64,000 nt of DNA, taken from positions 2,177,222 to 2,241,221 of the forward strand of contig NZ_KZ119600.1 in the NCBI RefSeq assembly GCF_002153425.1. Direction: 5' to 3'. The position numbers and the translations under genes are program-made. The notes under the pieces are model-generated. The model was not told the DNA's origin. It did not search any database and saw only the letters and a list, made by a program, of their open reading frames with translations. Positions 9,859-54,146 of this stretch are shown here, piece by piece. How positions within the stretch are numbered: position 1 is the first letter of the stretch; each line of letters opens with the position of its first letter. This stretch comes from Litchfieldia alkalitelluris (GTDB taxonomy: Bacteria > Bacillota > Bacilli > Bacillales > Salisediminibacteriaceae).

Positions 9859-10771
9859 TCAATATTTTGGCCATTATTTATTAAATCGTGATTTGATTTC
9901 ACGTGAACAGCTTTCCGATGCACTAGAATATCAGAAGCAAGTTCATGTGAAGTTTGGTGTTCTTGCAGTTGACAAAGATTATATGACAGCAGCACAAGTA
10001 GAGGAAGTACATGAAAGACAAAAACAAGTAGATAAACGATTTGGTGAAATTGCAGTGGAGTTGGACTACTTAACAGGGATTCAGGTGGAGACACTCCTAT
10101 CATCACAAAAACAAAGCTATCTATATTTGGCACAGGCGCTTGTCGATAGAGGATATTTTACGATGGATGAATACAGTAAAACTTTAAATGAATACAAATC
10201 AGAATTTGGTTTGTCAGATGAACAATTTAATGCAATAAAAGGTGATAGTATATCAGCATTAGTAGAAAAAGTACTGAATTCTTCAGAAGCTAATAAAGCA
10301 ACTATAGAATATATTTCACTATTTGTTAAAAATATGGTGCGGTTCATTGATGATCAAATCAGGATTGATGCATCTTTAGTTAGTGCAACTGAACAGTTTC
10401 AATGGTTGGTCATGCAAGAATTGACAGGAGATGCTCCCTATTACACTGCATTAGGAGCAGAATCAGATATGTTTCTAGAAATCGCGTCCGCCTATGCTGA
10501 AGAAAATTTAACTGAAGTTGATGAACTAGCAAAGGCATCCGTTAGTGAATTCTTAAATTTGCATAATGGAATATACAGTGTAAATATGTCAAACGTTGGA
10601 ATTATCTTGAATATGAAACCGCAGGAAGTTTTGGAAGATGCAAATATATCAGGTGAGTTGTTGTGTATAACAGTTACTACTTCCAAAGGAAATTTTAAGC
10701 TATTAATTTCAGAAAGGGTAAATACTATTTCCATCAATTCGAAACTAGAAAAAGGTGCAATTAAATCATAG
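9851..10771 (+). CDS. CheX-like protein with repeated N-terminal helical domain
   Basis: The 306-aa protein has two parts. Residues 1-100 hold repeated segments of the type LISREQLSDALEYQKQ, MTAAQVEEVHERQKQ and LTGIQVETLLSSQKQ, each followed by a FG.(I/L)AV-like turn, resembling the helical repeats found before secretion-type ATPase (MshEN-like) domains. The C-terminal third has the CheC/CheX/FliY active-site pattern, Glu and Asn in SEFLN followed 21 residues later by Pro in NMKP. That family dephosphorylates CheY-P. It overlaps the CheY-like gene at 9472. Dephosphorylation of that regulator is inferred. Confidence 0.75.
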   Translation: MFSQYFGHYLLNRDLISREQLSDALEYQKQVHVKFGVLAVDKDYMTAAQVEEVHERQKQVDKRFGEIAVELDYLTGIQVETLLSSQKQSYLYLAQALVDRGYFTMDEYSKTLNEYKSEFGLSDEQFNAIKGDSISALVEKVLNSSEANKATIEYISLFVKNMVRFIDDQIRIDASLVSATEQFQWLVMQELTGDAPYYTALGAESDMFLEIASAYAEENLTEVDELAKASVSEFLNLHNGIYSVNMSNVGIILNMKPQEVLEDANISGELLCITVTTSKGNFKLLISERVNTISINSKLEKGAIKS

Positions 10772-10812
10772 GGTCAATTCTGTAAATTGAATGATGGAAT
10801 CAAATAAATATT

Positions 10813-10852
10813 AATGAACGGACCAAAATTTGTTTTTGGTCTGTTTTTTTAA
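10813..10852 (+). terminator. Terminator after the CheY/CheX-like pair
   Basis: GGACCAAAA and TTTTTGGTC form a hairpin followed by seven T. Confidence 0.85.
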
Positions 10853-10923
10853 TCTTAAAAGAAGCGGTGAACAGGTAAATGTTTTATACTTGAAGTTGTT
10901 AATACTAATATGGAGGAGGAAAT

Positions 10924-11616
10924 ATGATGATTATAGAAATCTGGAGCGACTATGCTTGACCATTTTGCTATATTGGCAAAAGGCATCTGGAGGATGCCAT
11001 AAACAAAGTAGAAGTTCAAGTAGAGGTAGTTTATCGTTGTTTTGAACTAGACCCTTCAGCCCCACGTGATGTCAGCTATAATATGTATGATAAGTTAGCT
11101 TCTAAATATGGAATGAGCATGTCACAAGCGAAACAAAGTGTTCAGAGAGTCGTGGACATGGGCAAAGAAACTGGGTTGGATTTTAACATGGATAGTCAGA
11201 TTTTAACCAATACTTTTGATGCACATCGATTAACTGTTTTCTCAAAAAAGCATGGTCTCATGCGCCCTATGGCGGAAAGGTTATTCAAAGCTCATTTCAC
11301 TGATGCTTTACATATAGGAGACCATAATACCTTGGTTAATCTTGCTGTCGAGGTAGGAATGGATCGTGAAAAGGTTCGAGAAGTGCTTAAAAGTGATGCT
11401 TTCAATGATGAAGTTCAATCAGACAAGTTAGTGGCATCTGAGTTATGTATACGAAGTGTCCCGTTTTTCCTTATTAATAAAAAGTATACTATAACTGGTG
11501 CACAGCCGTCTGAAGTATTTGTAGATGCTATTAACAATAGTGCAAAAGAAGAAGACATTAATCTTGGAACAATTAAAAAAAGTAAAACAAACTGTAGTCT
11601 AGATGATGGATGCTAA
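10924..11616 (+). CDS. FrnE/DsbA-family oxidoreductase, probable selenoprotein (TGA = Sec12)
   Basis: Reading through one TGA at 10957-10959 gives a 230-aa protein of normal FrnE length. It begins IEIWSDYA-U-PFCYIGKRHLE, where the family has CPFC, and continues in the same frame through FELDPSAPR, VVDMGKETGLDF, NTFDAHRL and a final Cys-containing tail (NCSLDDGC). The TGA is exactly at the first active-site Cys, giving UPFC (residues 12-15). GGAGGAGGA precedes the start ATG at 10924. A perfect 6-bp stem with a 5-base loop lies 28 bases after the TGA. There is no other stop or frameshift. FrnE proteins are cytoplasmic thioredoxin-fold oxidoreductases. Starting at the internal ATG 11083 would remove the catalytic motif. 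Sec insertion is inferred; a nonsense mutation is the alternative. Confidence 0.82.
10957..10998 (+). promoter_or_regulatory. Candidate bacterial SECIS of the frnE-like gene
   Basis: The TGA at 10957-10959 is followed by GGCATC (10982-10987), loop TGGAG and GATGCC (10993-10998). The apical loop starts 28 bases after the TGA and has G at its second position, within the spacing usually described for bacterial SECIS (about 16-37 bases, from memory). A nearer hairpin, TTTTGC (10963-10968) with GCAAAA (10976-10981), could stack below it. Confidence 0.6.
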
Positions 11617-11629
11617 TGAAAAAACTTAT

Positions 11630-11682
11630 TCAAAACTGTTAGAAGGTACCTACGTAAAGCAGCACCTTTTAACAGTTTTTTT
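11630..11682 (+). terminator. Terminator after the frnE-like gene
   Basis: AAACTGTTAGAAGGT pairs with ACCTTTTAACAGTTT (one G-U) and is followed by T residues. Confidence 0.8.
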
Positions 11683-11707
11683 ATGTCTTTAAATACTTAT
11701 ATTTAAC

Positions 11708-11772
11708 ATTCAAACAATCACTTGAATATATATGTGTAAATTGCTACGATATATTCAAAAGAACATTTGAAT
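11708..11772 (+). promoter_or_regulatory. cadCA promoter with two CadC-type operators
   Basis: Two 20-bp sites share the form ATTCAAn-N6-nTTGAAT. ATTCAAACAATCACTTGAAT (11708-11727) overlaps a TTGAAT -35 box (11722-11727), and ATTCAAAAGAACATTTGAAT (11753-11772) lies just after the TACGAT -10 box (11745-11750, 17-bp spacer). This matches the known cad operator type (TCAAAT...ATTTGA). The ArsR/CadC protein encoded at 11785 is the expected repressor, released by Cd, Pb or Zn. Confidence 0.85.
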
Positions 11773-11784
11773 GAGGTGTGTAGA

Positions 11785-12153
11785 GTGTCAAAAAAAGCTA
11801 CATGTGAAGTGTATTGCTACGATCAAGAAAAAGTAGATCGCATTCAAAGCGAACTGGAAATTGAAGAACTATCTCGAGTAGCACAGTTATTCAAGGCATT
11901 ATCTGATGAAAATAGGTATAAAATTACATATTCCTTATGCAGGGAACAGGAATTATGTGTATGTGATATTGCAAATATTATTGGGTCTTCCGTTGCAACG
12001 GCCTCCCATCATCTTAGAACTTTATATAAGAAAGGTATCGTGAAATATCGCAAAGAAGGTAAATTGGCATTTTATTCTCTTGATGATCACCGTATTAAGG
12101 ATCTAATAATGACAGGTCTCGAACAACAGAGAGAAGGTAAGGAAGTTGAGTAA
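11785..12153 (+). CDS. cadC: CadC-type ArsR/SmtB metal-responsive repressor
   Basis: This is a 122-aa repressor, the usual CadC length. It has the CadC N-terminal Cys pair (KATCEVYCYD), the metal-site segment ELCVCD in the recognition region, and the winged-helix core IIGSSVATASHHLRTLYKKG. In the family, N-terminal Cys and the CVC Cys bind Cd(II), Pb(II) or Bi(III) and release DNA. GTG 11785 is chosen, with GAGGTG 6 bases before it; a TTG at 11767 would lie inside the second operator. It overlaps the cadA start by a few bases. Confidence 0.92.
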   Translation: MSKKATCEVYCYDQEKVDRIQSELEIEELSRVAQLFKALSDENRYKITYSLCREQELCVCDIANIIGSSVATASHHLRTLYKKGIVKYRKEGKLAFYSLDDHRIKDLIMTGLEQQREGKEVE

Positions 12154-14302
12154 TAAAAATCAAGAATTTAATGAAATGGCTACTGAAACAAAAACATATC
12201 GTGTAGAAGGCTTCACCTGATTTGACTGTGCCAAAACATTCGAAGCGAATGTAAAACACCTGGATGGTGTTTATGATGCAAAAGTAAATTTCGGTGCTTC
12301 CAAAATAACCGTTAAAGGAAATGTTTCTTTGAAAGCACTGGAAAAGGCAGGAGCTTTTGAAGATCTGAAATTGCGTGACGAGAAGGAACAAGCAATAGTA
12401 AGAATTCCATTTTGGAAGCAAAAAGCTAATATAAAAGTTTATGTTTCTATTACTTTATTAATTGCTAGCCTTGTTTTAGCTGAAGTTATGGAGGCAGAAA
12501 GTGTTCTTCCTACTATAGGAATTTCATTTGCAATCATCATAGGTGGATATTCCTTGTTTATAAAAGGGATTCACAATCTAGTAAGGTTAATATTTGATAT
12601 GCATACTCTAATGACAGTAGCTATCATTGGGGCGTCCATAATTGGTGAGTGGACAGAAGGTGCGATTGTGGTTATCCTTTTTGCTATAAGTGAAGCATTA
12701 GAGAGATATTCCATTGATAAAGCACGTAAATCTATAGAATATTTAATGGAGATTGCTCCTAAAGAGGCATTAATTCGTAGAAACAACAAGGAACAGAAGA
12801 TTCATGTCGATAACATCGAAATTGGTGACATCATGATAGTAAAACCAGGGCAAAAATTAGCGATGGATGGAAAAATAATAAAGGGATTTTCTACAATAAA
12901 TCAAGCAGCTATTACAGGGGAAAGTATACCAGTTACAAAAACAGTAAACGATGAGGTGTTTGCTGGAACGTTTAACGAGGATGGTTTACTAGAAGTCAAA
13001 ATCACAAAACTTGTAGAAGATACAACCATAGCAAAAATTATATATTTAGTAGAAGAGGCCCAGGCTGAAAAGGCACCATCGCAGGCGTTTGTCGATAAGT
13101 TTGCCATGTACTATACACCAGCAATCATCATATTAGCATTCTTAATTATTATAATTCCACCTTTATTTTTCCAAGGAGATTGGAGTTATTGGATCTATTT
13201 AGGGCTTGCAACTCTGGTTGTCGGCTGCCCTTGCGCATTAGTAATCTCTACCCCAATTGCAGTCGTTACTGCTATTGGAAATGCGGCCAGAAATGGTGTT
13301 TTAATCAAAGGGGGAGTACATCTAGAAGAAGCAGGTGCAGTAGAGGCTATTGCTTTTGACAAAACTGGTACTTTAACAAAAGGAATTCCATCTGTGACTA
13401 ATATTATCCCATTTGGGGAAGGGGACACTGATGAATATTTGGCTATCACTTCAGCTATTGAAAGTGGTTCCCAACACCCACTTGCATCTGCCATTATTAA
13501 AATGGCTAATGATAATGAAATTGAGTTCCATCAACTGATTGTTGATGATTTCCAATCAATGAAGAGGGGCATCAAAGCAAAGGTAAAGGATAATGTATAT
13601 TATATTGGGAGTCCATCTCTTTTTAAAGAATTTCACCACTCATTGGAAAAGGAACTAGAAGATAAAATCGATAAGTTTCAGACTGAAGGAAAAACCGTCA
13701 TTATCTTAGGGACAATGAAGGAGATCTTATTAGTAATAGCTATAGCTGATGAGATAAGAGAAACATCTAAGGAAGTCATCAAGGAATTAAATGAATTATC
13801 TATTAGAACTATCATGCTAACTGGTGATAATAAAAGGACAGCAGCAGCGATAGGAAAAAAAGTTGGTGTAGAATTTATAAAAGCTGATTTACTTCCAGAA
13901 GATAAATTAAACGCCATCAGAGAACTCAGGGGACACCGTAAAAGTGTTGCGATGGTTGGAGATGGCGTAAACGACGCTCCTGCTTTGGCTGCATCAAATG
14001 TCGGGGTAGCAATGGGAGGAGCTGGAACAGATACTGCGTTGGAAACTGCAGATATTGCATTAATGTCAGATGATTTAAGTAAGTTGCCATACACGATTAA
14101 CCTCAGTCGTAAAGCATTAAATATCATTAAGCAAAACATTATATTTTCTTTAGTAATTAAAACTATTGCTTTATTATTGATTGTACCTGGATGGTTAACA
14201 CTTTGGATCGCAATATTTGCAGATATGGGAGCAACGTTACTTGTAACGTTTAACAGTTTAAGGTTAATGGGGTTTAGGGAAGGAAAATACAAGCTGAAGT
14301 AA
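12146..14302 (+). CDS. cadA: CadA-type heavy-metal P1B ATPase, probable selenoprotein (TGA = Sec25)
   Basis: With one in-frame TGA (12218-12220) read through, this is a 718-aa Cd/Zn/Pb-exporting ATPase of normal length. The N-terminal HMA domain reads [19 protein letters not shown], where CadA has GFTCxxCA, so the first metal-binding Cys becomes U (residues 25 and 28). The domain continues intact ([22 protein letters not shown]). Downstream are the CPC transport motif ([10 protein letters not shown], residues 361-363), DKTGTLTKG (phosphorylated Asp about 405), a Ser-Gln-His-Pro-Leu SEHPL-type site ([10 protein letters not shown]) and [17 protein letters not shown] 12146 overlaps the cadC stop; ATG 12176 is an alternative. 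A TTG at 12329 with AAAGGA upstream could start a version without the HMA domain. Sec at this site is inferred from position and the hairpin that follows. Confidence 0.85.
12218..12252 (+). promoter_or_regulatory. Candidate bacterial SECIS of cadA
   Basis: After the TGA (12218-12220), ACATTCG (12236-12242) and CGAATGT (12246-12252) form a perfect 7-bp stem with a 3-base loop, or a 6-bp stem with loop GAAGC (G first). The loop begins 21-22 bases after the TGA. GTG (about 12228) and CAC (about 12257) could extend the helix across an internal loop. Stem and loop sizes match the candidate at 10982. Confidence 0.6.
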
Positions 14303-26203: not shown

Positions 26204-26430
26204 ATGTATAAATACTACTTACATTGTAAATTAAAAAAGGAAAAATAGAAAGGGACGGACACTTTATATTAGATCTAGATTATTAGTTTTTTAATAACAC
26301 CACTCTTAATACGAAATATTTCAAGTAACAAAAACATTATGCTACTATCAATAACTAGGAACGGATTTATTAAATTTTATATAATCGTGACACAATTATA
26401 GGTTTGCTTAGATGATGGAGGGATGGATTA

Positions 26431-26670
26431 ATGTCTAAAAAGGTTATCGTATATTCTACTGATGGGTGCGTAGAATGTAATTACGTTAAAAAAATGTTAG
26501 AAGACAAGGGTGTACCATTCGAAGTTCGAGATGTAATGGCAAAAAGAGAGTATCAATTAGAAGTGGAAAAGTTTGGATTTATGGGAGTACCTGTCACTGT
26601 AGTAGGTGATAGGGCTGTAAAAGGATTTAAGCCAGAGTTAAATGATTTAATAAAGGACATTGTTGAATAA
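26431..26670 (+). CDS. Glutaredoxin-like protein (CxxC)
   Basis: The 79-aa thioredoxin-fold protein has the redox motif GCVECNYV near residues 12-15, the cis-Pro segment GVPVTVVGD and the GFKPELN tail. It resembles NrdH/YtnI-type small glutaredoxins. It keeps Cys at both motif positions, unlike the two TGA-containing genes. A terminator (GTGAGGGTGTC with GACACCCTCAC, 26676-26717) follows. Confidence 0.9.
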   Translation: MSKKVIVYSTDGCVECNYVKKMLEDKGVPFEVRDVMAKREYQLEVEKFGFMGVPVTVVGDRAVKGFKPELNDLIKDIVE

Positions 26671-26778: not shown

Positions 26779-27159
26779 TTAATCATTCCAGTGATGATAT
26801 AGTTCTTCCCAATTGACCTTTTTTTTAGGAGGGGGGACTTCTTCCCGGTAATATTTTAAGTGAAGATTTTGAGTACTAATAAGATCCCCTTTAATATTCC
26901 TTTTTACTGTAGGAAAAACAAAGCTTACATAATCGTCAAGATGTCTAGTACTCCTTCTTTCTTCCATGAAGACTTGTAATTTGGCCACGACTCGAACACT
27001 AAACCCCATTTTGCTTTTAAATGGAGAACCTATACTAATTATATTTTCTTTTTTTAAGGGACGATGGACACTATTTAAGTAATCTACAATTTCAGCTTCA
27101 TAATCTTGAAGACTATCAATATCATAATAAAAATGTACGATCGTTTCTGCTTGAATCAT
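26779..27159 (-). CDS. Conserved-looking hypothetical protein, 126 aa
   Basis: No family is recognised. The protein is soluble, starts MIQAETIVHFYYDIDSLQDY and ends with a Pro/Lys-rich stretch (EEVPPPKKKVNWEELYHHWND). The ATG at 27159 has GGAG 8 bases upstream; a GTG at 27168 lies too close. It stands alone. Confidence 0.6.
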   Translation of the reverse strand: MIQAETIVHFYYDIDSLQDYEAEIVDYLNSVHRPLKKENIISIGSPFKSKMGFSVRVVAKLQVFMEERRSTRHLDDYVSFVFPTVKRNIKGDLISTQNLHLKYYREEVPPPKKKVNWEELYHHWND

Positions 27160-27367
27160 ACCTACCACTCCAATAAATAATATGCATCAATAATAACACA
27201 TTTTGTACAGTTCAATCATGCTTCGTTAGCAGTATTAGCCTAAAATCGGACTAGACAATAAAATATTTTATGTTTATTAGCTCATTTGTATAAAAAAGTT
27301 TTATTAGGAAATCTTATAATTGTTCATTGAGTCAAAAAAAACGAAAAAATTATAGGAGGAAAAACAA

Positions 27368-53670: not shown

Positions 53671-54096
53671 GTGAATAAGGACAATGCGAAGAAAAAATTA
53701 ACGCCAATTCAATTTGAAGTTACTCAAAACAACGGTACGGAACAACCTTTCAATAATGAATATTGGGATTTCTTTGATGATGGCATATATGTGGACGTCG
53801 TTTCAGGTGAAGTTTTATTTAGTTCAAAGGATAAATTTGATTCTAGCTGTGGATGGCCAAGTTTTACAAAGCCAGTTCACGAAGAAGTTATTGTAGAAAA
53901 AGAAGATTTTACTCATTTCATGGTACGCACGGAAGTGAGAAGTAAGGAAGGTGATTCCCATCTGGGGCATGTTTTTAATGATGGCCCAGCCCCGACTGGA
54001 TTAAGATACTGTATTAATTCTGCAGCGTTACGGTTTATTCCAAAGGATGCATTGGAAAGTGAAGGGTACGGAGAATACAAGAAGTTGTTTGATTGA
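53671..54096 (+). CDS. msrB: Peptide-methionine (R)-S-oxide reductase
   Basis: MsrB (141 aa) has the [20 protein letters not shown] segment and the active Cys in the conserved [15 protein letters not shown]. The early CxxC zinc-binding pairs seen in many MsrB are missing, as in the non-zinc B. subtilis form. GTG 53671 overlaps closely with the msrA end. Confidence 0.95.
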
Positions 54097-54101
54097 TTGA
54101 A

Positions 54102-54146
54102 AGGGATTGTCCTAAAGGTATATTTTTAGGGCAAATCTCTTTTTTA
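54102..54146 (+). terminator. Terminator after msrAB
   Basis: GGGATTGTCCTAAA and TTTAGGGCAAATCTC pair imperfectly, followed by TTTTTT. Confidence 0.7.

Follow-up and report, generated by a model that had tools for sequence, protein, structure and literature searches.

Selenocysteine (Sec) has been reported in two protein families that are the closest counterparts of the genes considered here. These are the cation-transporting ATPase E1-E2 selenoproteins (32 proteins from 25 organisms in a 2016 survey; the family is listed in PMC2398784, PMC9312934, PMC13188914 and PMC5029168) and the DsbA-like selenoproteins, recognized by PF01323 and a UxxC motif (45 proteins from 41 organisms, 2016 survey). 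For Bacillales, three selenoproteins were counted in 2006 (PMC1794560). The nearest cysteine-based systems are the Deinococcus radiodurans-type FrnE (structure 5cnw) and the pI258-type cadCA operon. Here, a 64,000-nucleotide stretch of Litchfieldia alkalitelluris contig NZ_KZ119600.1 (the window; genome size 4.88 Mb) was analyzed, in which an FrnE-like gene (frnE), a CadC-type gene and a CadA-type gene lie consecutively in that order on the plus strand, with an in-frame TGA codon in both frnE and cadA. It is highly probable that these are two genuine, separately evolved selenoprotein genes, with TGA read as Sec, which came to stand side by side by accident.

Comparison of the locus with described systems

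The window FrnE and CadA belong to selenoprotein families that are already listed. The FrnE-like protein matched PF01323 (E = 2.7e-38) and a profile of 13 orthologues matched the FrnE structure 5cnw (3.6e-73). Its start is ATG 10924 with GGAGG directly upstream, and its TGA sits in WSDYA-U-PFC, which is the UxxC position of the DsbA-like selenoproteins. The C-terminal Cys pair was present as CX5C in the window protein and as CX4C in several relatives; in PMC8945050 the pair is called CXXXXC, and FrnE proteins without it are noted. Kinship to the solved FrnE, a CP(F/W)C-type site and the C-terminal pair thus place the protein in the FrnE subfamily, from whose D. radiodurans type it differs by a predicted Sec for the first active-site Cys. 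Its difference from the DsbA-like selenoproteins as listed is this subfamily membership, in one group across several bacilli genera; the word FrnE was absent from the selenoproteome papers PMC9312934, PMC5029168, PMC2398784 and PMC13188914.

The CadA-like protein (start TTG 12146 or ATG 12176) matched PF00403, PF00122 and PF00702 and was over the cut-off for TIGR01525 (608.9 bits) and TIGR01512 (519.2 bits). Its TGA sits in GFT-U-FDC within the HMA domain, so that it shares the family model (TIGR01525) and the UxxC change with the ATPase E1-E2 selenoproteins. It differs from them in that the CadA of these bacilli is Cd/Zn-type with a CadC partner, and in having two hairpin designs and a repeated Sec/Cys exchange, neither of which is mentioned in the accessible parts of PMC2398784, PMC9312934, PMC13188914 and PMC5029168. 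The CadC-type gene (start GTG 11785) lies between frnE and cadA and adjoins cadA; its product matched 1u2w, a cadmium efflux system accessory protein (E = 3.2e-46), with Cys7, Cys58 and Cys60 aligned and Cys11 also present in the window protein. These four residues are the metal ligands of CadC. The metal-site cysteines, the cadC-cadA order and the TTCAA/TTGAA palindromes, which resemble the pI258 operator, are all as in the pI258-type cadCA operon; the predicted Sec in the HMA domain is not. By title or abstract start, in a search with most subscription journals outside its scope, no paper on an FrnE and CadA selenoprotein pair was found.

The two TGA codons are 1261 bases apart, in agreement with the 1.26 kb given in the initial annotation, and each replaces the first Cys of a CxxC motif (UPFC in FrnE, UFDC in CadA), as had also been described. 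Under translation table 11 the frames start only at 11083 (frnE) and 12329 (cadA), past the TGA codons, and a plain reading therefore loses the residues that matter. Both in-frame TGA sites exceed chance. After an overlap filter, 21 frames of the window remained in which one or two TGA codons were taken as sense, frnE and cadA included; among the other 19, nine had their TGA codons no further than about 20 residues from an end, and when the other ten were compared with Pfam, six had no match and four matched with no TGA inside the matched stretch. Glutaredoxin-domain and SelR (MsrB-type) frames (26404-26670 and 53671-54129, plus strand) carried TGA at residue 4 and residue 142, respectively; as these codons lie outside the matched domains, no Sec is indicated there.

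Evidence for selenocysteine at both sites

Sec at both sites is strongly supported by sequence comparison. The window genome encodes selA (PF03841, 2.3e-133), selB (389 bits, above the family cut-off), selC (tRNA-Sec, anticodon UCA, 0.8 kb from selB) and selD (TIGR00476, 419.5 bits), the last with its own Sec in AGUGCK. Sampling 299 genomes of the window genome's order found selB in 137, so that Sec machinery is common among these bacilli. At L017, a recombinase-like open reading frame (ORF; by eye, L017:13546-14829) adjoins the tRNA-Sec gene (about L017:13331), a placement that suggests use of selC for integration there. The selA-selD region also contains a stretch (L223:217-1409, minus strand) of repeated peptide units that is open in three frames if TGA is read as sense.

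For the codon comparison, 35 genomes of the family of the window genome were used. CadA matches were counted at ≥50% identity, giving 38 with the window's own copy included; one extra short piece belonged, as second HMA copy, to a tandem protein of genome G015, and this protein was counted once. The HMA codon was read in 36 matches, the two unread (one each in G012 and G015) having no stop inside the match, and was TGA in 23 and TGT or TGC in 13. By genome, 21 of 35 had a TGA copy, 11 had Cys only and three had no copy at ≥50% identity. selB was found in 20/21 genomes with a CadA TGA vs. 6/11 Cys-only genomes (Fisher P = 0.011). Among 13 FrnE orthologues of the family (40-100% identity), eight carried TGA and five Cys, with selB found alongside 7/8 and 3/5, respectively. 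A further set, the best 80 named FrnE loci among the matches listed and no census, held TGA in 12, Cys in 67 and one unread codon; the 12 TGA records bear the names Cytobacillus, Neobacillus, Evansella, Bacillus, Paenibacillus, Alkalihalobacillus or Bacillales. Of these 12 genomes 10 had selB, vs. 5 of the 38 Cys genomes examined out of 67 (Fisher P = 1.5e-5). At both sites, then, an in-frame TGA aligned to the Cys of homologues and TGA homologues occurred in other organisms, and the record of Cys and TGA in relatives that the initial annotation had proposed showed TGA kept at both positions and tracking selB.

TGA at these sites in relatives without Sec genes had been named as a refuting observation. 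It was seen only in G017, the one family genome with a CadA TGA in which selB was not found and the one miss among the FrnE-TGA orthologues (76% complete), and in two named FrnE-TGA genomes, both metagenome-assembled genomes (MAGs). In the remaining selB-negative family genomes (G009, G010, G023, G029 and G030; 99-100% complete) CadA was Cys only, and TGA was absent from the sites in all five. G010 was considered as a counterexample (CadA with TGA, no selB) and rejected, as its site is Cys and its TGA codons precede the HMA domain.

Another DsbA-type family, only distantly related (27-35% identity to the window FrnE), gave 15 matches, of which 14 sequences were read (L031-L035 and L037-L045; L036 is partial). 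TGA stood at UPFC in 14/14, GCGG-AGG(C/T)T-CCGC-like hairpins were found in 12/14, and selB was found in all 14 genomes.

Hairpins downstream of the TGA codons were compared with the published bacterial Sec insertion sequence (bSECIS) model (loop 3-9 nt, stem 4-16 bp, G in the first two loop positions, 16-37 nt from UGA; PMC13188914), which was applied without its energy limit and with stem thresholds of ≥6 and ≥5 pairs. Both window genes satisfied it on these terms, and the hairpins described initially, with a 6-bp stem and 5-base loop after each TGA, were recovered with TGA-to-loop distances of 28 nt (frnE) and 21 nt (cadA). The FrnE helix was complete in 18/19 distinct TGA vs. 0/71 distinct Cys sequences, its stem showed A-T and G-C exchange among TGA sequences, and shifting the partners by 1 to 3 bases left no TGA sequence with a complete helix. 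The CadA TGA sequences fell into two designs. In type I (12 sequences, the window's included) the hairpin 16-32 nt after TGA had 5/5 inner pairs in 10/12, and a second hairpin 36-50 nt after TGA had 5/5 pairs in 12/12; in type II (11 sequences) a CUGCUC-GGUUC-GAGCGG-like hairpin lay 11-27 nt after TGA in 11/11. The second type-I hairpin shares a UGGA loop with the frnE hairpin, which might mark a SelB site common to both. However, the Cys copy L118 retains this second hairpin too, and at 40 nt from TGA its loop falls beyond the range of the model. At a stem of ≥6 pairs, the model was passed by 18/19 FrnE, 22/23 CadA (one in a shifted register) and 14/14 second-DsbA TGA sequences, with controls at 7/71 (FrnE Cys), 1/14 (CadA Cys) and 3/74 (window Cys codons) and a background of 826/12767 codon windows of 36 window ORFs; at 5 pairs the TGA sets gave 19/19, 22/23 and 14/14. 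The 48-nt fold was also compared with synonymous shuffles that preserve the protein (500 shuffles for the window's CadA). Mean z values were -3.91 for FrnE TGA vs. -1.56 for FrnE Cys, -2.27 for CadA TGA vs. -0.50 for CadA Cys, and -2.50 for the second DsbA group.

Several observations weigh against Sec at these sites and were set beside this evidence. TGA genes do occur in G017 and the two MAGs in which selB was not found, and selB-positive genomes with Cys at the sites exist (six family genomes for CadA), so that owning the machinery does not force Sec. A 5-pair stem is far less selective, passing 18/71 FrnE Cys and 2/14 CadA Cys sequences, 14/74 window Cys codons and 2419/12767 codon windows. 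The window's CadA alone is not unusual vs. its synonymous shuffles (51/500 as low); the support comes from the set of relatives. Just 14/23 CadA TGA rows reach 5%, and folding better than in shuffles is seen for FrnE Cys sequences as well (27/71 at 5%). The CadA of G016 contig 3 has TGA with one type-I hairpin mismatch and fails the bSECIS model. Some TGA contexts hold Cys nearby by chance, as at 26779-27219, which reads CxxU near its start. Finally, Sec as a metal ligand in CadA is a role that we infer.

Two other accounts of the TGA codons were considered. The genes could be decaying after two nonsense mutations, as TGA ends other window frames too; yet many species have TGA at this very codon, the frames are otherwise intact, the hairpins are conserved with compensating changes and selB tracks TGA. 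Decay is extremely unlikely. TGA could instead be read as another amino acid through a suppressor or a code change, given that the frames are open if TGA is sense. This has next to no probability, since TGA ends other frames here, the genome has selA, selB, tRNA-Sec and selD, Cys of relatives aligns with the TGA sites, and only TGA sequences show the complete frnE helix.

With TGA as Sec, SelB and tRNA-Sec would read each codon with the aid of the downstream hairpin, as its conservation and the machinery suggest. By family likeness, FrnE would act as a cytoplasmic DsbA-family disulfide reductase or isomerase with a selenolate as the attacking residue (UPFC), and would be re-reduced via the C-terminal Cys pair. 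CadA would export Cd/Zn/Pb as an ATPase that CadC keeps repressed until metal is present; its N-terminal HMA domain may hold metal by a Sec-Cys pair instead of Cys-Cys. Coordinates are given in Table 1.

Table 1. Positions of the predicted selenoprotein genes and associated features in the window.
Feature	Position	Strand	Evidence
FrnE/DsbA-type thiol oxidoreductase, predicted selenoprotein, 230 aa, Sec12 (UPFC)	10924..11616	+	PF01323, FrnE profile, TGA in relatives
Predicted Sec codon TGA of FrnE-like gene	10957..10959	+	
bSECIS-type hairpin of FrnE-like gene, GGCATC-TGGAG-GATGCC	10982..10998	+	Helix conservation, model fit
Terminator-like inverted repeat (11632-11679) plus T run, between frnE and cadC	11632..11682	+	
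Two CadC-type palindromes TTCAA(n8)TTGAA before cadC	11707..11773	+	
CadC-type ArsR/SmtB metal-sensing repressor, 122 aa	11785..12153	+	Match to 1u2w
CadA/ZntA-type P1B ATPase, predicted selenoprotein, 718 aa from TTG, Sec25 in HMA domain (UxxC)	12146..14302	+	
Predicted Sec codon TGA of cadA	12218..12220	+	
bSECIS-type hairpin of cadA (type I), ACATTC-GAAGC-GAATGT	12236..12252	+	
Second conserved hairpin of type-I cadA, ACACC-TGGAT-GGTGT	12256..12270	+	

Adjacency of frnE and cadCA

The initial annotation had gone further and proposed a coordinated, selenium-dependent metal-resistance module, in which the Sec forms of FrnE and CadA share their evolution and work jointly during metal stress. 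The two genes are adjacent on the same strand and both carry UxxC, and in D. radiodurans FrnE is reported to be cadmium-inducible and its mutant cadmium-sensitive (PMC8945050), but synteny, the intergenic repeat, palindrome placement and the Sec/Cys histories leave the module unsupported. When gene order was checked in relatives, the frnE-cadC-cadA order was kept in none: cadC preceded cadA in 27/28 relatives' loci, frnE occurred in 0/28 of these cadCA loci, and cadC or cadA occurred in 0/12 family frnE loci, whose lengths ranged from 5.7 to 12 kb. Within up to 8 kb either side of the 80 named frnE loci there were no cadC matches and just two weak matches to the CadA query (25% and 33% identity), leaving FrnE beside cadC-cadA in 0/80. 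Within the window, the repeat that separates frnE from cadC has 16-nt arms that are 94% complementary and 16 nt apart, followed by a T run; a terminator scan with a loop limit of 8 missed it (loop 16). Of 27 relatives, 20 had the palindrome TTCAA(n8)TTGAA twice upstream of cadC and 5 had it once, while 2 lacked it. In the window, none was present in 10370-11708, that is, before or inside frnE; the pattern is loose, with 13 further matches in the window.

The histories of the two codons also differ. Sec-FrnE, with 19/19 rows, formed one side of one branch (support 100/99, one change), vs. six changes of the Sec/Cys label on the CadA tree, at least five of them forced by well-supported branches. 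Genome G027 combines Sec-FrnE with Cys-CadA, and the 13 close FrnE orthologues are missing altogether from 14 of the 21 Sec-CadA genomes. A joint module is therefore very improbable, and the frnE-cadCA adjacency looks accidental in this one genome, with no system behind it.

Sec/Cys exchange in CadA

Less expected among these results, and worth following, is the lability of the Sec/Cys state in CadA. Two genomes of the window's genus, G015 (TGT) and G016 contig 3 (TGA), share a 4358-base cadC-cadA segment that is 99.66% identical (L118 and L119:94-4451), and 8 of its 9 mismatches together with the sole indel are confined to 114 bases surrounding the Sec/Cys codon. Both genomes were found to have selB, and further genes of the segment look by eye like metal or metalloid resistance genes. 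Short-tract recombination is the likeliest cause of these codon-centred differences. G015 has a cadA (L142) with two tandem HMA copies, both with Cys.

Whether the CadA HMA site is a Sec/Cys switch under live selection, with short-tract recombination swapping its allele on mobile metal-resistance segments, is put forward tentatively, as a possibility with somewhat less than even chances; if so, Sec would tune metal affinity or redox sensitivity. In bacteria, substitution of Sec by Cys is considered rare and is documented mainly for FdhA and SelD (a 2026 review, PMC13188914), and repeated Sec/Cys changes in CadA, of either direction, bear on that claimed rarity. The near-identical natural Sec and Cys alleles of CadA would make the benefit of selenium to a metal pump directly testable. 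Judged from sequence, Sec in a metal-export ATPase and in an FrnE-type oxidoreductase would be recurring features of a group of bacilli.

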